IMG/VR virus record: IMGVR_UViG_3300015263_000221 | Location: 1-24,472 of that record | Source of the DNA: a virus | Strand: one strand, 5' to 3' | Length of the DNA stretch: 24,472 nt | In this document: positions 5,825-22,621 of the stretch, piece by piece | How positions within the stretch are numbered: the first letter of the stretch is position 1 | How the letters are laid out: each line of letters starts with the position of its first letter | Notes under the pieces: model-generated | Databases searched by the model: none | The model's input: only the letters and a program-made list of their open reading frames with translations | What the model was told of the DNA's origin: nothing | Translations under genes and position numbers: made by a program

Positions 5825-8800
5825 CTCTAATCTTTTATTTGGGGCTCCGTCCTCTAGAGTAGTTGTATCAAATACAAATACTTCCGTAGACTTTAATGTA
5901 ATGCTTAATATACAAATCCCAAAAGAGATTTACGAAAGTCAAGATACTCGATACTACACTAAATTCAAATATAGGGTTTATAGATCCGAGATTCTTCAAA
6001 GCACTACAGCCGAACCTTCTGATGAATTATATCAAGTTTTTGAAGGAACTTTACCAAACAACACAGGTGGAAGCAATCCTTATACTGGGTATGTAAAATA
6101 TTTAGATACTATTACTGAAACTGCAAGATTAGGGGGAGTTCCTCTATATACCAACGCTAATAGCGGAGAAGGTATTTTAAAAGCTAATGAAATGCCCCCA
6201 GCCTGTAGAGATATTTCTACTTTTAAAGGGCATATGTTTTATGCCAATACAAAAACCAAAGAATCACTTACAGTTACTTTGTCTGATTTATCTAGAATAA
6301 ATACCAATAGTGATTTTGTAATCACAGATGGTACTTCAGAAGGGACTGACAATTATAAATTTATTTCTCAAACTAGAGGAGTAAATACTATTACCGTAGC
6401 GAGTGCTACCTTGGCAAGTTATGCTGGTAAGTGGTTTACTTTAAATACCGCAAACAATGCAGCATCTTATGCATTTTGGTTCGACCACACGGGAGCAGTA
6501 ACAACTCCTCCAGCAGGGATACCTACTTCGTCAATCCCGGTAAGAGTTAATATATTTAATGCTGCACCATCAGTTACCACAATTAGAGATGCAATAATAG
6601 CAAATATTAATTTAGCAAACTCGTCTCAAGCCACAGAGTTCTCTGCGGCAGCATCCTCTACTAACATCGCCATCGTTACCAACACAACCTATGGCAGTGC
6701 TAGCGCAGGAACATATTCTTCTACAGAGTTGACAATTGCATATAGCACTTCCGCAACAGTTAAAGGTGTTTATACTTTAACATTTAACTCCGCAAACGCT
6801 AACGATTATGCTGGAACTTATGTCACAATCACAGCAGCGAACTTTAACTTGGCATATGTTTTTTGGTTTGACCATACTGGAGTAGCTACTTCTCCTTCTG
6901 CCACTGGACTATATTCACAACCATATGTTTTAGTGAGAGTCAATATTGCAGGATTGGCTACAACAACAGCCATTGCCGGAGCACTTAATACAGCTATAAA
7001 TACTTTCCCAGTAGAATTCTCATCTGCTTCTCCAGCAAACGTACTTACTTTAACATATGTAAACTCTGGAGCAACTTCTATTCCATTATACAACGGTGGG
7101 GCGGGACAAATAACTAGAGCTACTGTTCAAGAATCTTTCAGTGACTACACAACATCGTCTACTCAATTCGTTGCCAGACTTACGATTAATTCTGCAGCCT
7201 ACTCTAATTTGACAGATCACATTCTCCGACTATATGATGCTAATAATAATATAAGAGTAGCTTTGTGGTTTGATACTACAGTGGGACAAAACGGAACTCC
7301 TCCATCCATTCCGAGCGGGTTTGTACCGTTAAAAGTAAATGCTTATGGTGGCGGCTCCCCTACAGGTAACACCCTAGCTACGGCTATTTTTAATGCATTA
7401 CAAGCATCCCCATACAGCAGTACTTTTGCTGCTACTACCCCCGGAACAACTTCTACTGTAAGAATTTTATATAATTTTTTTACTCTTACTTCACAGGACC
7501 AGACTCCATTTGCATCTTTTATAAGAACTACAACGGGTACTTTTTCCGGAGCAATCTCTGTAACTAACTTTCCGGGAATATCTAATAGAATGTTGATCGG
7601 CTCTTCCATAGAAGAAACAGCTAGAAACATGGTAAGAGCAATTAACGCTAAAGAAACTTCTAAGTATTATGCCATATATATTTCTAACTTTGGAGAAACT
7701 CCCGGTAAAATATTTATTCAAAAAAGAGTTTTTGATAATCTTTCGTTTATAGTTTGTTCTAAAAACTCAAACACAACAAGAGCTTTCTCTCCTACTTTAG
7801 GCTTAGCGTTGCCTAATTCTTTAATTACAAGTAATACAAATAAGACAACTGTTGTAACAGATAGGGGAATGTGGGCTGGTCCTTTTGCTAATAGTTTAGA
7901 TGATATTTTAATATTTGGAGCCAACTACTCTTCGACAAGTTCTCCATCTAGTGTTAGTGAATTAGTAACTTCTAAAATTTGTGGGAAGCAGAAAGTCGTA
8001 GCATCTGGAACTTTATCAGAATGGGCTTATCAGAATGTGTTTGAAATATCTGGAGTTACTGATGGAGTAACCTCTCCTGCAGCCTATTTTAATGCTGGGT
8101 ATACTGTATTCTTAAATACCTATGGCAATAGCAATCTTTTCACTTCCTCTTCCGAAGCTATAGGAAACCGAATTTATTTTTCCAAATACCAAGAACATGA
8201 AGCGGTTCCTCTTTTAAACTACATTGATATCGGGTCAAGAGATCAAGAGATTTTGAGGATTGTACAACTCAGAGAGTCTTTATTTATTTTAAAAGAAGAC
8301 GGAGTTTACCGCTTAGCCGGAGATCCCGGAGCGAATCCTACATGGGATGTTGGTGCATTTGACACTACTGCAATTATAAAAGCTCCAGACACAGCCATTA
8401 CATTAGGAAACCAGTGTTATTTTTTAAGTAATCAAGGTATTATGCAATTGAATGAATCTAGTATTCAATCGATTTCCAGACCTATTGATAATAAAATAAT
8501 GCCGCTCATAACTACTAACCCCAATTTACCAAGCTTGTCTTTTTCTGTATCTTATGAATCAGATAAATCTTTTTTAATGTGGACGGTTACGACTAGCAAA
8601 GACACTAAAACTACAATTGCATATAGATATAATTACGTCACTAATGCGTGGACTGAATGGACTTTATCTAAAACATGTGGACTTGTTAGCGTTCACGATG
8701 ATAAAATGTATATCGGGTCAGCGACCGATAATTATATAGAAGTTGAAAGAAAAAACTTTAATAGGTTTGACTTTGCAGATAGGGAACTTTTTGGATATAC

Positions 8801-10415: not shown

Positions 10416-10739
10416 ATGTATTTGTGGGCTGAATATATTAAAGAACGTCAGGATGCGAAGATCATATGTTTAGAAGTTGGGTTTATAACATACAGACATG
10501 TGGAAGAAGACTCTGTATTTATATGCGATTTCTTCGTACTACCTGAGCATAGGAAGAAAGGGATCGGAAATAAGCTAGTAGATATGCTTATTAAAAAAGA
10601 AAACCCCAAAGTTCTTTACGCTAGTTCTGATACTGCTAGTTTAAATTGGGAACAGTCTCATAGTTTTATAATAAATTGGGGATTGGAAGAACTAGAAAGA
10701 GAAGATGAAACAGTATATTACGGAAAGGAATTAAGATAA
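10416..10739 (+). CDS. GNAT-fold acetyltransferase-like protein (possible gp13-like internal protein)
   Basis: The 107-residue protein has the GNAT core: a strand FICDFFVLPEH followed by RKKGIGNKLVDMLIKK (residues 33-60), which matches motif A, whose R/Q-x-x-G-x-G/A loop binds the acetyl-CoA pyrophosphate. Then come VLYASSDTASLNWEQSHSF and a C-terminal strand ending VYYGKEL. At 107 residues it is shorter than most GNAT enzymes. In T7-like phages a GNAT-related family (T7 gp13/DUF2833) occupies this place between nozzle and ejection proteins, so it may be virion-associated and not a free enzyme. It has a TAGGAAG Shine-Dalgarno 5 bases before ATG and overlaps the next gene by one base (TAATG). 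The GNAT call is fairly sure; the gp13 comparison is inference. Confidence 0.7.
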   Translation: MYLWAEYIKERQDAKIICLEVGFITYRHVEEDSVFICDFFVLPEHRKKGIGNKLVDMLIKKENPKVLYASSDTASLNWEQSHSFIINWGLEELEREDETVYYGKELR

Positions 10740-13459
10740 TGGGCGGCAAATCTGGAATAAAACTACCAAAAATAAAAGTAGAAGCACCTAAGATTACTGT
10801 AGGTAAGGATCTTGGAGCGGGCAATATTGCTAAGGCTGCTACTTCCGTTGCTCAAACTGTAGGTAAGACTGGGGGAGATGTTGTAAAGACTCTTGGCAAA
10901 GGAGCCGAGGGAATTGTTGCTAATACTGCAGATATCGGTCAAAGTCTTGCTAAAGGGGATTTTAAAGGAATTGGGAAAGAAGCTTTAGAGCTTGTTCAAA
11001 GTGGTAAAGATATCGCTAAGGGATTAACCTCAGCTAACGTAGGACTAACTAGTGGTCTGGTGGGGGCGGCTGGAAGTAGTATCGGAGATAAGAATATTGT
11101 AAAAGCTTCTCAGGATATTAATAGAGAAGCCAATAAAGGAATTAATACTTATGGCGATGCTGCAATTGATGTTGGAGCTAACATCGCAACAGGTGGAACT
11201 TACGGGTTAGCTAAGACTGCAGCTCAAGGTCTTTCCTCTGGAGGACTGGGCGGCTTAGTAAGTGGGAAAGGTCTTCAGGAGGCAGCTTTAGGGGCTGCTG
11301 GATCTTATGCTGGTATTGATCCAAATATGTTAAAAATGGGAATATCGGCAGCACAGGGAGATTTAAAAGGAGCGGCACTACAAGGATTAGGCTCTTTTGC
11401 TGGATTAACTCCTGAGCAAATGAAAATGGCAACCACGGGGGCAGCAGCTCTTACTGGAGACAAAAAGGGACTAGTATCTGGATTAGCTTCTCAATTTGGA
11501 GCAGGAGCTGATGTAGCCAGTATGTTAGGATCAGTTGCTGGCGGTAATAAGAATGACATGATTAGCGCATTAGGCGGACAGCTTGGACTAGATCCCAAAA
11601 CGACAAGTATGCTAGGAGCGGTTGCTAGTGGCGATATTAAAGGCGAAGCGTTGAAGCAATTGGCAGGAGCTACTGGACTTGACCCTAAACTACTAGATAA
11701 CGTATCTAAAGGCAAATTCGACCCAATGCAGCTAGCAGGAGCTGCTGGATTTAGCCCTTCATCTCTTTTAGGCGGAGCTGCAGACAAACTTGGAATTAGT
11801 GCTTTGACTAGTTCTCCAGAAGCTAAAGAAATGATGGAGATGGGAAGAAGTGCTGGACGAGATATTGCTTCTATTGAAAAAAATATTCAAGAAGCCAGAT
11901 CGGCAGCGGAGAGCACTTATAAGATTGCAGCGGGAGATACTTTAAATACCATTGCTAAAAAGATGGGAGTTGATCCGAAAGCTTTAGCTGAAGCAAATAA
12001 TATCAAAGATGTAAATAAAATTGCAGCAGGGGCTGTCCTCAAAATACCGGGGGTGTCTCAGGCTCAACAGGCTGTATCCGGAGCCAGAAAAAGTATTACC
12101 GATAAGTATTTAAAAGATGCTAGTGGAAAAACTATTTACGGTCCTAATAATGCTCCAATTCCAAATCCAGATTATAATCAAGAAGAAGCTGATAAACTGG
12201 CGATGCAACAGCAGGGTGGCACTGGACAATCTATTCTTATGCCAGAAGAACCGGGATTTTTAGATAAAGCAAAAGATTTTCTGGGAGGCATTGGGGATAA
12301 AGTCACTGGCGCAGTTGGGGCAGTTGGCGATTATATTAAAGAAAATCCAAATGTAGCAGCTACTGCCGTTCAAGGCGCAGCGGCTGTCGGTGGATACATG
12401 GCTGGAGAAGCCTCTAGAGAAGAAAGAGAAAAGCTCCTAGAGAAGCAAATCTTAGAAACGCAAGGCGTTCAAGCTCTAAAGAATTATCAACTTTCAAAAG
12501 AAAGAGATAAAGCATATGGAGAACAGCAACAATTTCTAGAAGAGAGAATTGCTGGTGGTGGCATGACCGCCAAAGAAAGAGAGATGCAGGAACAAGGAAG
12601 ACTTCGTGCAGCTAGAATGGCTGCTGCTGGAAGGCTTGCTGGAGTAGAGCAACAAGCTCGTATGGGACAGGGAGTAACGGGGGCTGGATCAGCTCTTGCG
12701 GCTTCCTTAGCTGGAGCCCAAGCCCAAGCTCAAGCGGGGGCTGAATCTGAAAGAGCAGCTGCTACAAGTGCTGCGGAAAATGTAGAGAAGGCATTTGCAG
12801 CTAGACCAGCAGCCTTAGAAGCTAAAGCTAAAGCTGAAATGGATTTAGCTCAAATGAAAGACGCTCAAGAGTTGGCAAAGCTACAGCAGATTGGAGTTTC
12901 TAGAGCAGGACTTGGTGCTATCGAAGCAGGTAGAGGAGAGGCTCAAGGTAGACTCATCGCAACAGGAGCAGACCTAGCTACGGGAGCTATCTACGATAGA
13001 CCAGTGCTTTCTTCAACTGCTACTGATAAAGAAAAAGAAATTGCAGCACAAGCAGAAGCAGATAGACAAAAAGCATTACAGACAAAGGCTGGAGCAGCGG
13101 CAACAGTATCTGGCACAGCCCCTACTCAAACCAATGCGCAAGTAGTAAGCACATCAGTCCCTCAAAAAGCGGCTCCTGCACCACAAACACAAGTGGATCA
13201 GTTTAACGCTGCTCTACGGAAGTCTAAAGCTGAAGCTCCTCAAACCACTGGAGTATACGCTCCTACGGCTAAGCCACAAAATCCTGTAGATAATATGATG
13301 AAGATTGTACAGAATCCATCGCAAGCTGTAAAAAATCCACAACAAACAATTAATACAGTAAAACAAGTGGCAAGTAATCCTCAAGCTGCTAAGGCAGAGG
13401 TTAAAAAGGCAGTGGGTGGAATTGTTCCAGATTCTTTAAAAAATATAATTAAATTCTAA
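10739..13459 (+). CDS. Ejection/internal virion protein with LysM domain
   Basis: The 906-residue protein starts with a Lys/Gly-rich segment and amphipathic helices (1-177), then about six degenerate repeats (178-350, consensus KGxALxxLGxxxGLDPxxLxMxxxAAxGD), a LysM domain (394-437: YKIAAGDTLNTIAKKMGVDP, ending GAVLKIPG), a small-residue helix with AATAVQGAAAVGGYMAG that could insert in a membrane, and a long coiled-coil, Ala/Gln/Glu-rich C-terminal half. LysM binds N-acetylglucosamine polymers such as peptidoglycan. Together with its place between the GNAT-like gene and three more helical proteins, this suggests an ejection protein that crosses or anchors to the cell wall during DNA delivery. 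No lytic transglycosylase motif was recognised. Confidence 0.75.
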   Translation: MGGKSGIKLPKIKVEAPKITVGKDLGAGNIAKAATSVAQTVGKTGGDVVKTLGKGAEGIVANTADIGQSLAKGDFKGIGKEALELVQSGKDIAKGLTSANVGLTSGLVGAAGSSIGDKNIVKASQDINREANKGINTYGDAAIDVGANIATGGTYGLAKTAAQGLSSGGLGGLVSGKGLQEAALGAAGSYAGIDPNMLKMGISAAQGDLKGAALQGLGSFAGLTPEQMKMATTGAAALTGDKKGLVSGLASQFGAGADVASMLGSVAGGNKNDMISALGGQLGLDPKTTSMLGAVASGDIKGEALKQLAGATGLDPKLLDNVSKGKFDPMQLAGAAGFSPSSLLGGAADKLGISALTSSPEAKEMMEMGRSAGRDIASIEKNIQEARSAAESTYKIAAGDTLNTIAKKMGVDPKALAEANNIKDVNKIAAGAVLKIPGVSQAQQAVSGARKSITDKYLKDASGKTIYGPNNAPIPNPDYNQEEADKLAMQQQGGTGQSILMPEEPGFLDKAKDFLGGIGDKVTGAVGAVGDYIKENPNVAATAVQGAAAVGGYMAGEASREEREKLLEKQILETQGVQALKNYQLSKERDKAYGEQQQFLEERIAGGGMTAKEREMQEQGRLRAARMAAAGRLAGVEQQARMGQGVTGAGSALAASLAGAQAQAQAGAESERAAATSAAENVEKAFAARPAALEAKAKAEMDLAQMKDAQELAKLQQIGVSRAGLGAIEAGRGEAQGRLIATGADLATGAIYDRPVLSSTATDKEKEIAAQAEADRQKALQTKAGAAATVSGTAPTQTNAQVVSTSVPQKAAPAPQTQVDQFNAALRKSKAEAPQTTGVYAPTAKPQNPVDNMMKIVQNPSQAVKNPQQTINTVKQVASNPQAAKAEVKKAVGGIVPDSLKNIIKF
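11270..11788 (+). repeat. About six ~22-33-residue degenerate repeats
   Basis: Repeat units begin near residues 178, 210, 243, 272, 301 and 329 of the LysM protein. Key features are GL(D/T)P or its variants about 13 residues after KG/KND, and GD(L/K/I) at the unit end. Each looks like a pair of short amphipathic helices, suggesting a solenoid or membrane-active array. The last unit is truncated. Confidence 0.65.
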
Positions 13460-17552: not shown

Positions 17553-17885
17553 GTGGTTGATAAAGATAGACTTGCTAGAATTGAAGATAAACTAGATAAG
17601 ATTGCTGAGAAGCTTCAAGAAACTAATATTGTCTTAGCCGAGAATACTAAGTCTCTTATCATCCACGAAAAAAGAACTGACATTGCTGAGAATAAACTCA
17701 ACCTACTAGAAGTTCAGTTTAAAGAATACATAGCTAGAGACAGCGTTTTATTGCAAGAGATTGAAGAAAAGTTGGAACCTATCCATACTCACGTTACAGC
17801 CATGAACATTGTATTGAAATACATAATTCCAGCAGTAGGCGGGCTATTGGTGTTTCTTTTCAAAATCGGAGTTCTTAAATATTGA
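17553..17885 (+). CDS. Small coiled-coil plus C-terminal membrane helix protein (holin-like)
   Basis: The 110 residues comprise a long amphipathic coiled coil (about 4-85, starting DKDRLARIEDKLDKIAEKL) and one C-terminal hydrophobic helix (YIIPAVGGLLVFLFKIGVL). This architecture matches the XhlA/haemolysin-type family of one-helix phage proteins, which act as holins or holin partners. The start is GTG at 17553 with a weak GGGG-type Shine-Dalgarno. It is the last virion-strand gene, a usual place for a holin in T7-like order, but no endolysin follows; the next genes run on the other strand and overlap it by 42 bases tail to tail. Confidence 0.6.
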   Translation: MVDKDRLARIEDKLDKIAEKLQETNIVLAENTKSLIIHEKRTDIAENKLNLLEVQFKEYIARDSVLLQEIEEKLEPIHTHVTAMNIVLKYIIPAVGGLLVFLFKIGVLKY

Positions 17886-18431: not shown

Positions 18432-18726
18432 AAGCTCCTAATATTTTATCTAAATCAATTGTACAAGTTTTTTTATCTATAAATAACGCACTAGATGTCT
18501 TTCTATTTAATTTTAACATATCATGTAGTAAACTCAAACTTACAGGACTTGCTGACCATCGTTTATAATGGTAATATAATATCTCTGTATATAGCTTATC
18601 TTTTCCGTCAACTAATCTATGGAGTTCTTGGTAATAGCCGATATCAAAGCTGTTATCATAATACTCTTGAGCAGCATCTTGTTGTTTGGCTATTTCAATC
18701 AATTCTTCGTCAGTAAGCTTTTTCAT
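18346..18726 (-). CDS. Unrecognised phage protein with Lys-rich tail (126 aa)
   Basis: The product is helical: an N-terminal KKLTDEELIEIAKQQDAAQE, a central Tyr-rich YTEILYYHYKRW segment followed by SLSLLHDMLKLNRKT, and a strongly basic C-terminus (KDKKTKEKEKRFRQ to KTKRKD). The centre resembles a helix-turn-helix-like arrangement but is too weak to call. The basic end is consistent with nucleic-acid binding. It starts in TAATG overlap with the preceding gene, with only a weak GAG Shine-Dalgarno, so it is probably translationally coupled. Confidence 0.6.
   Translation of the reverse strand: MKKLTDEELIEIAKQQDAAQEYYDNSFDIGYYQELHRLVDGKDKLYTEILYYHYKRWSASPVSLSLLHDMLKLNRKTSSALFIDKKTCTIDLDKILGAYVKDKKTKEKEKRFRQISGIEPKTKRKD
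18435..18440 (-). promoter_or_regulatory. Strong ribosome binding site inside the upstream gene
   Basis: TAGGAG on the minus strand sits 3-5 bases before the ATG at 18431, well inside the coding region of the 126-aa gene. It supports translation of the 195-aa protein from 18431 despite the 86-base overlap. Confidence 0.65.
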
Positions 18727-19157
18727 TAGAACTCTATAGCTAAACCTACACCGACTTGTTTAGACGTTGTGGCAAGCCCCACAACGCTTAAGCTACCTGC
18801 TAGTGGAACAGATAGCGTAGCTCCATAATGAATAGGGCTAGTAAAGTTAGAAGTGTCTTTGATGGCAAGCATCCCGAGTGTTATGCCTGATTTACTTTTT
18901 GTTTCTTTTGTGTTGCTGGTATTGGTCACAGTCTCTGTGGTAGTGTCTTCTGTCTCAGTTGTTTGAGTAGTAGAACTACCATCAGAGTTAACTGTTTCCG
19001 TAGTAACTTTCTTTTTTTTGGTCTGCTTCTTTTCAACTTCTACAATCTTAATTACTTCTTTAGTAATGACTTTGGGTTTAGGAGTTAGAACATACCTTCC
19101 TATCAACAAACCTGAGATAGCCACAATTATAGTTGTTTTGTTAAGCAGACCTTTCAT
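18726..19157 (-). CDS. Membrane-anchored periplasmic protein, possibly spanin-like
   Basis: The 143-residue product has a short positive N-terminus, one membrane helix (residues 8-24, TTIIVAISGLLIGRYVL), a Lys-rich VEVEKKQTKKKK-type segment, a Thr/Ser/Glu linker of roughly 45 residues with repeated TET units, and a C-terminal beta-rich piece (GITLGMLAIKD, then SPIHYGATLSVPLAGSLSVVGLATTSKQVGVGLAIEF in shorter strands). Orientation is N-in, so the bulk lies in the periplasm. A single membrane anchor, a long linker and an outward beta end would fit a protein reaching the cell wall or outer membrane, as an inner-membrane spanin does, but it lacks the helical coiled coil usual for Rz. It has a GGAG Shine-Dalgarno 7 bases upstream and directly follows the secreted protease gene. 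Confidence 0.6.
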   Translation of the reverse strand: MKGLLNKTTIIVAISGLLIGRYVLTPKPKVITKEVIKIVEVEKKQTKKKKVTTETVNSDGSSTTQTTETEDTTTETVTNTSNTKETKSKSGITLGMLAIKDTSNFTSPIHYGATLSVPLAGSLSVVGLATTSKQVGVGLAIEF

Positions 19158-19901
19158 TTAAAGCTCCAAATTTTTAACCGTATTTAAAAGCTTCCTAATT
19201 TCCCTAGCATCTTCTTCCTTCTCCACAACAGGAGCGGTAATTAGAGGACATCTAGATAGCTTAGCTCGAACTAGAAACGGTCCCATGGCAAAAGATTTTT
19301 CCACGGTTCCATTCAAGCTGTCGTCACATTTGAGAGTAACTTCCTCGTCAGCAAAACCATCTTTAATAGCGTTATTGCCAACTACCCAATACTCATCTCG
19401 AACAAGCTCAGCATAACTTTTCTTGCTATACTTCCCTTTAGTTCGAGAGATAACATGCTCATCCATTTTTTCAATTAGTTGGATTACGTGTCCTAGGCGA
19501 GAGCTAACCTGTTGAGGAATGTCGCCCTCAAAGCCACCAGAAGCCCTATGTGACATTACAGTGGCGTACTTTGTGACATATCGAACTTCACTACTTTGAA
19601 GAATGTGAAACCCCATACTAGCTGCAAAAATTGCTACAGCATGTACTGGTCGTCTCAAAGTATTCATATAGTTCATTAGTTCTAGACCAGCCATAACGCT
19701 TCCGCCCGGAGTATATAGAACCAAGATAATAGGATCTTCTTTTTTACCGACTTGAGATAGTCGGTTCAATTCGTGCATCACTTCTCCAATTGAACCTCGA
19801 TCTACTGGACCAAATAGACTCACAGTATTTTCGCTAGTAAGAACAATTTCTTTAGCGAATGCTGTTGGAATTAGTAGCAAAAGTAACAGGACAAACTTCA
19901 T
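19158..19901 (-). CDS. Secreted ClpP-fold serine protease
   Basis: Residues 1-16 (MKFVLLLLLLIPTAFA) form a Sec signal peptide with an AxA-type cleavage site before KE. The mature part is a Clp-fold protease: the oxyanion loop TPGGS (64-68), nucleophile Ser95 in FAASMGF, His118 in VMSHRASGG and Asp169 in VRDEYWVVG, with a following GFADEEV like the ClpP G.(V/A)D segment. The triad order and spacing match ClpP, but the protein is exported and no ClpX/ClpA is nearby, so it would act without an ATPase, probably in the periplasm. Two mature cysteines (192, 218) could form a disulfide. A strong AGGAGGG Shine-Dalgarno precedes the ATG, which overlaps the metalloprotease stop (ATGA). I recall similar secreted Clp-fold proteins in other phages; their targets are unknown to me. 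Prohead protease is unlikely given export and location. Confidence 0.85.
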   Translation of the reverse strand: MKFVLLLLLLIPTAFAKEIVLTSENTVSLFGPVDRGSIGEVMHELNRLSQVGKKEDPIILVLYTPGGSVMAGLELMNYMNTLRRPVHAVAIFAASMGFHILQSSEVRYVTKYATVMSHRASGGFEGDIPQQVSSRLGHVIQLIEKMDEHVISRTKGKYSKKSYAELVRDEYWVVGNNAIKDGFADEEVTLKCDDSLNGTVEKSFAMGPFLVRAKLSRCPLITAPVVEKEEDAREIRKLLNTVKNLEL

Positions 19902-20443
19902 GAATCCCTCCTAGAGATTGTTGGGTAGTTATAGGGATTCGTAAATAGTTCTTCTAAATACTCTTCCTCTAATTCTTGATAACAATTGGTAATAGTATCG
20001 ATATAAGGATACATCATGCTGTTGGAACAATATGGGTATGGTATTGGCTTCATCTGTTCGACGTGATCTCTTTTCAAAGTACAATGCCCCCACTCGTGGT
20101 ACATTAACACTTTCCGTCTCATAAAATCCATTCTATTCCAAGCTTGAATTGAAATCACCACAGTGTTAGTGGAAGGGAGGCAATATCCCAAAACCCCGAA
20201 AGGAACTGTACTTGAAAATATTGTAGTTAGTTTATAGAGTCTTAGGGGTGTTTTAAATCTTTTTGCATCAGATTGAAACATGTCAAAGTAAGTTTTAAAT
20301 TCAGGACTATTATAAACAGGAGAGTTACTTAGTTTACTTTTAGCTAATACTAGGATAATGAGGCAAGCTAAGAATAGCATAACATACGAAACCTTACTAA
20401 TAATGTCAGTTATAGATTTAATCACTATCCTTCCTTTGCTCAT
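19898..20443 (-). CDS. Membrane-anchored metzincin-like metalloprotease
   Basis: The 181-residue protein has an N-terminal membrane helix (about 19-35, SYVMLFLACLIILVLA) and a catalytic motif HEWGHCTLKRDH (116-127). H116 and H120 are zinc ligands and E117 the general base; D126 stands where metzincins have the third ligand (HExxHxxGxxH), with H127 next. SNSMMYPY (140-147) fits a Met-turn. An upstream strand (NTVVISIQAWN) resembles the edge strand of such enzymes. The catalytic part would be outside the cytoplasm. The start is uncertain: ATG at 20443 has only AAGG touching it, while GTG at 20425 has AAGGA 6 bases upstream and would shorten the product by six residues. It overlaps the HNH gene and the secreted protease gene (ATGA). 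Confidence 0.75.
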   Translation of the reverse strand: MSKGRIVIKSITDIISKVSYVMLFLACLIILVLAKSKLSNSPVYNSPEFKTYFDMFQSDAKRFKTPLRLYKLTTIFSSTVPFGVLGYCLPSTNTVVISIQAWNRMDFMRRKVLMYHEWGHCTLKRDHVEQMKPIPYPYCSNSMMYPYIDTITNCYQELEEEYLEELFTNPYNYPTISRRDS

Positions 20444-21556: not shown

Positions 21557-22211
21557 ATTTGATATTATACCACATGGAAATTTCAGATTGTAGTTGTATT
21601 GCCGTACCAGTATTGTACACTATTACATCATATTCTGAGTCGTCACCTAATTGATTTTCGCTGACATGTAATTCAGTCCCGCTTAATTTAGTAGCTTCTG
21701 AGGGAATCTCTCTTTTTACTAAAACTAATACAGCACCAAGATTCTTGAGATGGGCTCTTTCATTTTTAAATCTGGCATCCGTTACTACTATATTACCTTC
21801 AATCTTAGCAACTCGCCTATCAAAGTATTCTAACCAGATGGTATCTTTTATATTAGTTCTACAGATATCCGTACCAAGAACCTGTAAAACTTCCCTAATA
21901 GAGTTTAAAGACCTGCCAATAAAAGAAGCATAGATAGTTTTCTGAGCATCCTCATTTACTCTAAATCCATCTAGCTCTAGTTGGTCTACTAAATCTTCTA
22001 AGTGGGTTGAGGATATGATTAGAGGAGTGGGAAACGGAAGTTCTTTCTTAGAAGGATCATCCATCCAAGGTCTAGGAATGTGGAATACGACAGAGGCAAT
22101 ATCCTTGAGTTCGTCAGCTAAACTAACCCTAATAAACTTATGGCGTTTGATTAAACCTTCCGCTGCGGTATCCTTTCCTGCAAACTTTCTTCCTGAAAAA
22201 GCAACTATCAT
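21534..22211 (-). CDS. Deoxynucleoside monophosphate kinase
   Basis: The 225-residue protein opens with a phosphate loop (SGRKFAGKDTAAEGL, residues 6-20; G7..G12-K13-D14-T15), the form seen in T4 gp1-type dNMP kinases (gp1 is 241 residues), and contains REVLQVLGTDICR followed by IVVTDARFKNERAHLKNLGA (about 113-163), also typical. Such enzymes phosphorylate dNMPs to dNDPs with ATP in the cytoplasm, recycling host nucleotides for phage DNA. AGAGGA precedes the ATG directly, which overlaps the previous stop (ATGA). The gene is complete. Confidence 0.8.
   Translation of the reverse strand: MIVAFSGRKFAGKDTAAEGLIKRHKFIRVSLADELKDIASVVFHIPRPWMDDPSKKELPFPTPLIISSTHLEDLVDQLELDGFRVNEDAQKTIYASFIGRSLNSIREVLQVLGTDICRTNIKDTIWLEYFDRRVAKIEGNIVVTDARFKNERAHLKNLGAVLVLVKREIPSEATKLSGTELHVSENQLGDDSEYDVIVYNTGTAIQLQSEISMWYNIKYATTSNY
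21564..21572 (-). promoter_or_regulatory. Extended -10 promoter candidate (TGGTATAAT)
   Basis: The nine bases are identical to the element at 9940-9948. Here seven bases separate it from the ATG of the Hint-domain gene, again with no Shine-Dalgarno and no clear -35 box. It lies within the 3' end of the dNMP kinase gene. Confidence 0.4.
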
Positions 22212-22621
22212 TCCTCTTCCCTTTCGTAAAATAATCCATTCTTAAGCTCCTCTTCCTCGGAGATATATCCATCCTGAGAAAGCATTGTCATGAAGATACT
22301 CAACATTATACACTCTAAATTTTTATGATTAGGAGTGTGATCCCAATGCTCTAAGTGAGACAATTCGTGAGCTAGATATTGTAGTAAATCTATAGTAGAG
22401 TACTCTTTTATCTTGTCAGATATCATATCATGGTAAGTGATATATAGAGTTATTCGGTAATTCTTTTGATCGTAATAAGTTATCAATCCATGAGAGTGTT
22501 GCCATCTCTCCTTGTTTCCAGTTTTGGAAGATATCTTTTTAAGCTTTTTTAGATTAGGGAGCAAATGCGAAACCGCATTAATATACTCCCTCATCCATTC
22601 TAACTTCTTTACGATAATCAT
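22208..22621 (-). CDS. SprT/YgjP-like metalloprotein
   Basis: The 137-residue product has AHELSHLEHWDHTPNHKNLE: H85, E86, H89 and H95 give HExxHxxxxxH, the same spacing as the third ligand in YgjP/WLM and SprT-like metalloproteases. The preceding beta strand (YRITLYITYHD) fits the fold. Residues 1-60 are basic and helical, then beta. In bacteria and phages the physiological role of such small proteins is mostly unknown; SprT relatives in eukaryotes cleave DNA-crosslinked proteins. There is no signal peptide, so it is likely cytoplasmic. No Shine-Dalgarno is visible; it starts 3 bases after the exonuclease stop and is probably coupled. Confidence 0.65.
   Translation of the reverse strand: MIIVKKLEWMREYINAVSHLLPNLKKLKKISSKTGNKERWQHSHGLITYYDQKNYRITLYITYHDMISDKIKEYSTIDLLQYLAHELSHLEHWDHTPNHKNLECIMLSIFMTMLSQDGYISEEEELKNGLFYEREEE

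Follow-up and report, generated by a model that had tools for sequence, protein, structure and literature searches.

The peptidase ClpP (family S14, PF00574) is defined by its cytoplasmic partnership with ATP-driven unfoldases. In the E. coli enzyme, L48, F49 and Y62 form the docking pocket for the Clp ATPases, and R170 is needed for the assembly of the tetradecamer. ClpP folds that are encoded by phages are routinely annotated as head proteases, and the phage ClpP-type head maturation proteases (phrog_94, phrog_133, NF045542) are cytoplasmic and adjoin capsid genes. Clp-fold proteases that lie outside the cytoplasm and do not need an ATPase are also known, i.e., SppA and the NfeD1b-type enzymes (S49 and relatives), and these use a Ser–Lys dyad. 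The phage protein described here has the fold of the first group, finds its best profile matches in the second, and would work in the manner of the third, outside the cytoplasm and without an ATPase.

The window, i.e., the whole stretch of DNA that was analysed, is a 24.5-kb IMG/VR virus record. It is probably a fragment, since its first open reading frame is cut by the window’s end and none of its genes was recognised as coding for capsid, portal or terminase. The gene of interest (19158..19901, minus strand, 247 aa) is a genuine gene, found exactly where the sequence-only reading had placed it. A Shine–Dalgarno sequence (AGGAGG, 19907..19912, minus strand) lies just 5′ of the ATG, which overlaps by 4 nt (ATGA) the stop of the 5′ gene, encoding a metzincin (see below); the start codon, and with it the signal peptide, are therefore well supported.

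The ClpP fold that had been proposed for the product was borne out by the match to the Pfam model CLP_protease (PF00574; E = 3.7e-17, 63.2 bits against a cut-off of 20.2) and by an AlphaFold2 monomer model (mean pLDDT 93, pTM 0.88) that superposes on solved ClpPs, with Z 23.7 and 2.2 Å over 168 residues for C. difficile ClpP1 (6mx2). The best solved relative in a phmmer search was 1y7o (E 3.6e-13), and the NCBIfam ClpP models all scored far under their cut-offs (best 48.2 bits against 249). Over residues 20–191 the fold is common to the phage protein and to the solved S14 enzymes (6mx2, and 6hwn from T. thermophilus), as are the Ser and His of the triad, the oxyanion strand TPGG, the Gly-rich strand and the long helix ahead of the acid. 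Residues 192–247 (19161..19328, minus strand) lie outside the aligned part and form a C-terminal extension, with two strands and a helix assigned by DSSP on the model. Nearly the whole protein, extension included, is matched by the two best library structures, one from an uncultured Caudovirales phage (A0A6J5KYR7; 258 columns, TMq 0.82, 42% identity) and the other from Fadolivirus (A0A7D3V576 in BFVD; 233 columns, TMq 0.80, 26% identity). The latter belongs to a eukaryotic (amoeba giant) virus and, unlike cellular ClpPs, matches the extension too; an exchange of the extended fold between phages and giant viruses is possible.

The exported ClpP is no isolated case but belongs to a whole clade, with at least 77 distinct members. 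When viral contigs were scanned, the single protein as query brought up four relatives and an alignment as query 80 loci, from which 77 distinct members, the query included, were aligned after duplicates and partial copies had been dropped. Identity to the query is mostly 30–42%, and reaches 60–62% in L001, L006 and L007. Among 50,697 records of cultured phages there was no full-length relative, and the region has no DNA match in cultured phages. Genome contigs from 84,980 species of prokaryotes yielded one relative, in a MAG that has several copies; the one contig of this MAG that was read (L086), with SbcC/SbcD-like genes and a gp46/47-like gene order matching that of large phages, looks like a phage contig. 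The clade was not found in the other 57 genomes from the class and phylum of this MAG. Given the absence from related genomes, the phage-like L086 and the lack of a relative in cultured phages, the family appears to be carried by phages and to be known almost exclusively from metagenomes. An origin as an ordinary host ClpP was rejected on the first two of these grounds, and a plasmid origin because no full-length relative was found among plasmids. The MAG (G001, bog_1112, Deltaproteobacteria) comes from a bog, and its contigs C54, C79 and C273 carry the exported-ClpP family; either these contigs were mis-binned, or they hint that the carrier phages infect this bacterial group.

In a quick tree with long isolate branches (77 rows, 41 of them exported members), a branch with SH-aLRT 99.6 separates the exported ClpPs from bacterial ClpPs, from isolate-phage ClpPs, most of them annotated as head maturation proteases, and from second, cytoplasmic-type ClpPs of the same phages. 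The separate descent of the exported clade is well supported by these sequences. Clustering with prohead proteases in a phylogeny had been set beforehand as the check on the proposal that the protein is not one of them; it came out negative, and the proposal stands. Most of 30 carrier contigs encode a second ClpP, and in L001, L006 and L007 the exported one is the only one.

The N-terminus of the protein (MKFVLLLLLLIPTAFA, followed by KE; 19854..19901, minus strand) is a predicted Sec signal peptide with signal peptidase I cleavage between A16 and K17: K2 stands ahead of an uncharged hydrophobic run of 14 residues, and AFA precedes KE at the predicted cleavage site. A comparable N-terminus arose in 191 of 20,000 shuffles of the protein. 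A signal-like N-terminus (signal peptide, anchor or lipobox), taken as K or R ahead of a hydrophobic run, free of charges, of 11 residues or more, was found in 73 of the 77 clade members and in one of 49 control ClpPs (bacterial, plasmid and isolate-phage ClpPs, and second ClpPs from the same phages), with p = 7e-29, a value inflated by kinship within the members and within the controls. The sole control that passed (L055) has no such N-terminus when read from its own open reading frame, and its pass looks like an artefact of testing every Met. The four members that failed are signal-peptide-like, as in L006 (MKFLILLLLMINTAFSKE, where an Asn interrupts the run), or their start is doubtful (L081). 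A lipobox is present in few members, and the lineage that carries the gene in its head module tends towards an uncleaved-looking anchor with a long linker. The export signal of the clade is thus well supported, and the clean signal peptide that the sequence-only reading had seen was upheld by the features of the N-terminus itself and by their conservation across the relatives.

The nucleophile S95 (FAASMG; 19617..19619, minus strand) aligns with S97 of E. coli ClpP, and the catalytic histidine H118 (MSHR; 19548..19550, minus strand) with H122. Both had been assigned correctly as triad residues and are invariant (77/77), as are M96, G97, G126, R153 and D185, and the TPGG strand is invariant or nearly so across the 77 proteins. 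Since S95 and H118 are kept in sequences that are mostly as distant from the query as stated above, the active site is under selection. The third residue had been given as D169, and here two alignments conflict. A pairwise phmmer alignment with 1y7o, with a gap at 171, places D169 on the ClpP Asp, whereas in a multiple alignment with 11 ClpPs (the E. coli enzyme and ten from retrieved loci) the catalytic Asp, present in 11/11, falls on E170 (19392..19394, minus strand). Conservation decides between them: of the 77 members, 71 have E at position 170, five have D and one has Q, while at position 169 N is found in 42 members and D in 21. The catalytic acid is thus most likely E170, replacing Asp171 of ClpP, and not D169, and the third residue of the triad departs from the Asp that characterises S14.

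The C-terminal extension contains two cysteines, C192 (19326..19328, minus strand) and C218 (19248..19250, minus strand), which are invariant in all 77 members and are candidates for a disulfide with each other; two further cysteine columns are common to about 20 members. The number of cysteines in the mature protein is even in 73/77 members and in 29/49 controls (p = 1e-6, inflated by kinship like the value above). An even count is the expectation for an oxidising compartment and was therefore counted in favour of a periplasmic location; together with the conserved pair it fits periplasmic disulfides, as judged from sequence.

The residues by which ClpP docks its ATPase are lost in the clade. 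L48, an aromatic residue at F49, and Y62 are each present in 11 of the 11 reference ClpPs, while at these positions the exported proteins have, respectively, mostly polar or charged residues, K/E/R, and V/F, so that the hydrophobic docking residues are lost. A Clp ATPase (AAA_2) scored above the cut-off in one of 30 carrier contigs and in 14 of 14 control genomes; the contigs may be fragments, and an ATPase encoded by the host would be compatible with this count. Within that scope, the claim that the protein lacks an ATPase partner was confirmed on nearly all of the relatives’ contigs. The equivalent of R170 is N or D in the exported clade, which makes ring assembly uncertain.

Compared with ClpP of family S14, which resides in the cytoplasm or in organelles with its Clp ATPase, the phage protein is therefore predicted to be exported, has Glu for Asp, lacks both the docking residues and the R170 equivalent, and adds an extension with an invariant cysteine pair. 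From the phage head maturation proteases it differs in the signal peptide, the cysteine pair and the separate branch of the tree. The invariant H118 sets it apart from SppA and the other S49 enzymes; the SppA model reached 12.4 bits against a cut-off of 155.45, and no S49 Pfam match was found in the window’s ClpP. No paper on an exported or periplasmic phage ClpP was found in the literature searched, which covers subscription journals sparsely; the fold is known, and its relocation and the accompanying changes are, as far as could be tested, new.

The exported ClpP occurs in four genomic settings. In the window, L001, L006, L007 and L029 it is close to a membrane-anchored metalloprotease. In about 15 other loci the order is cytoplasmic ClpP, PD-(D/E)XK nuclease, exported ClpP, a small protein, a dedicated head maturation protease (phrog_1028), a scaffold-like protein and phrog_752, the capsid protein; in L003, the portal and terminase genes lie upstream of these. 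The phrog_1028 protease is a gene separate from the exported ClpP in the two loci that were scanned (E 8e-42 in L004 and 8e-48 in L002), and its cluster (c14) is present in most loci of this setting. Besides the exported ClpP, the head-module phages have one or two ClpP-fold proteins that lack a signal peptide (L003:4251-4952 and 6265-6837; L004:2432-3064), and with the dedicated head protease of the scanned loci the module has as many as four protease-fold genes. In about 30 loci, many of them from large phages, the exported ClpP lies between gp47-like and gp46-like recombination genes, as named from their sequences. In several of the remaining loci, the exported ClpP is followed by a protein with a signal peptide and a TM segment (c26) and by TM coiled-coil proteins. 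The distance from capsid genes that had been claimed for the window holds for its close relative L006, where the capsid gene is 27 kb off (on its 79.7-kb contig ClpP occupies 9.1–9.8 kb, and the genes for capsid, phrog_14242, for portal and for terminase lie within 37.1–44.8 kb), but it does not hold for the lineage that has the gene inside the head module. The L006 contig was considered as a complete circle, but the suspected end repeat has only 20 bases and completeness is not claimed.

The window’s lineage has a run of membrane proteins around ClpP. Directly downstream lies a 143-aa protein with an N-terminal TM segment (18726..19157, minus strand), and membrane or secreted products make up 12 of 20 genes within two genes of ClpP and four of 39 farther away in this setting (p = 1e-4); in the other three settings such an enrichment was absent or not significant. 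The upstream gene (19898..20443, minus strand, 181 aa), to which the exported ClpP is translationally coupled according to the overlapping junction, encodes a matrixin-like metzincin with an N-terminal TM helix, the zinc motif HEWGHCTLKRDH (20063..20098, minus strand) and a Met-turn-like SMMYP. Five relatives all keep the zinc ligands, SxMxP and three cysteines; their motif is of the type HE(W/L)GHCxLxxxH, i.e., HExxHxxxxxxH, which exceeds the classical HExxHxxGxxH by one residue, and their Met-turn reads S(I/M)MxP. The metzincin fold is predicted by a model built from five sequences (pLDDT 82.9), which compares with the MMPs (MMP-9) at Z 10.0 and 3.0 Å over 114 residues; Foldseek alone gave weak matches (best E 0.011). 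Lys/Arg ahead of the TM helix suggests that the catalytic domain faces the periplasm. The pairing of the two proteases, which the sequence-only reading had drawn attention to, is real in the window, where the genes overlap, and is limited to the window’s lineage: the metzincin is directly adjacent in 4/78 loci and close by in a fifth, and the pairing was dropped as a general rule.

We put at roughly 60% the probability that the protein is a Sec-exported ClpP-fold peptidase that acts independently of ATP, in the periplasm, on envelope proteins of the host. The precursor would be exported by Sec and cleaved after A16, whereupon the mature protein would fold in the periplasm, with C192 and C218 oxidised to a disulfide, and assemble, perhaps as a ring. 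Ser95, His118 and Glu170 would then hydrolyse their substrates without ATP; since there is no Clp ATPase, these would be peptides and unfolded or exposed segments rather than tightly folded proteins, and would be offered during infection by envelope proteins of the host. In the window’s lineage, the co-translated, membrane-anchored metzincin may work alongside in the same compartment. A wider proposal, that this phage-specific branch of ClpP forms a disulfide-stabilised periplasmic proteolytic chamber, independent of ATP, with which many unrelated phages break down envelope proteins of the host in the course of infection, is tentative and on balance doubtful. A large phage clade with the active site kept, the docking residues lost and an export signal and a cysteine pair gained would be a new use of the ClpP fold and a periplasmic phage activity hidden by current annotation, because head-protease and generic ClpP models are the only ones that its members match. 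With a single signal peptide, serine and cysteine pair to probe in a laboratory host, the system is cleanly testable.

The annotation as a head protease has its own logic: the hydrophobic N-terminus could tether the enzyme to the membrane where proheads assemble, and there it would cut scaffold or capsid proteins. The best PHROG matches are indeed head maturation proteases (phrog_94, E 6.9e-17; 76/77 members), and the loci with the gene a few positions ahead of scaffold and capsid would suit this role. In both of those loci that were scanned, however, a dedicated phrog_1028 protease is encoded, and its cluster is present in most of the others; the NCBIfam head-maturation model NF045542 gave 51.9 bits against a cut-off of 120, the tree places the clade apart, the capsid gene of the close relative is remote, and a cysteine pair and a cleavable signal peptide would be unexpected in a cytoplasmic enzyme. 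Identity as a prohead protease was rejected on tree, context and model cut-offs, and the tethered variant is very improbable. That the protein has retired from catalysis and serves as a periplasmic binding or scaffold protein is likewise highly improbable: the acid has changed from Asp to Glu, and to Gln in one member, and the ring-assembly Arg is lost, but a retired enzyme would be unlikely to keep S95, G97, H118 and the TPGG strand (nearly) invariant in 77 divergent proteins.

If the protein is, as we prefer, an active periplasmic peptidase, its purpose may be sought in lysis: it would belong to a late cassette that breaks the envelope, with proteases helping spanin-like proteins to clear the periplasm. 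Small TM coiled-coil proteins (c65/c51), and also c26, with its signal peptide and C-terminal TM helix, are encoded by the next genes in the window’s relatives and in some five further phages; one c65 and one c51 protein weakly match Rz-like spanins at E 0.002–0.006, values that are common among coiled coils. A transglycosylase-like gene lies 41 kb away in a close relative, and the c65/c51/c26 neighbours are missing from two large lineages, which leaves a lysis role rather unlikely; c26 and c65 as proven spanins were rejected as unsupported. Degradation of a receptor or of a periplasmic defence protein early in infection, i.e., superinfection exclusion or counter-defence, would suit the predicted export, the carriage by very different phages and the linkage to early-type genes (in the window a dNMP kinase and a polymerase exonuclease, and in the large phages genes for recombination), but it comes without a known receptor or defence target and is also unlikely. 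Because the lineages keep the exported ClpP in very different neighbourhoods, the context implies no single role; the varied settings argue for a portable module rather than a part of one fixed cassette, and leave lysis, envelope remodelling and exclusion as rival purposes of similar weight.

Several small proteins recur in these neighbourhoods. In the large-phage loci L009, L011, L017, L038, L043, L045, L053 and L064, a protein of about 118 aa with a signal peptide (c34) is encoded directly upstream of the exported ClpP, and several of its representatives end in aromatic-rich strands, e.g., INSSWDF. The c26 protein (L001:8987-9364, L006:7000-7386 and L007:6786-7160, and also in L056, L067, L027, L021 and L073), with a coiled-coil-like middle between its signal peptide and its TM helix, is found beside or near the exported ClpP in distant phages; it has no family match and no match among cultured phages, and in the window’s relatives it begins ...KGxxxPFDGxLFTxE.... 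The window itself encodes at 17553-17885 (plus strand) a 110-aa coiled-coil protein with a C-terminal TM helix (cluster c23), similar in shape to XhlA-type holin-associated proteins but with no family match; in 11 loci this protein is conserved at the operon’s convergent end. A small protein at 22208-22621 (minus strand) with a zinc-peptidase-like HELSHLEHWDH and no Pfam match is kept in L006 and L007, and a 906-aa glycine/alanine-rich protein of virion type is encoded at 10739-13459 (plus strand), with a LysM-like domain at about residues 380–445.
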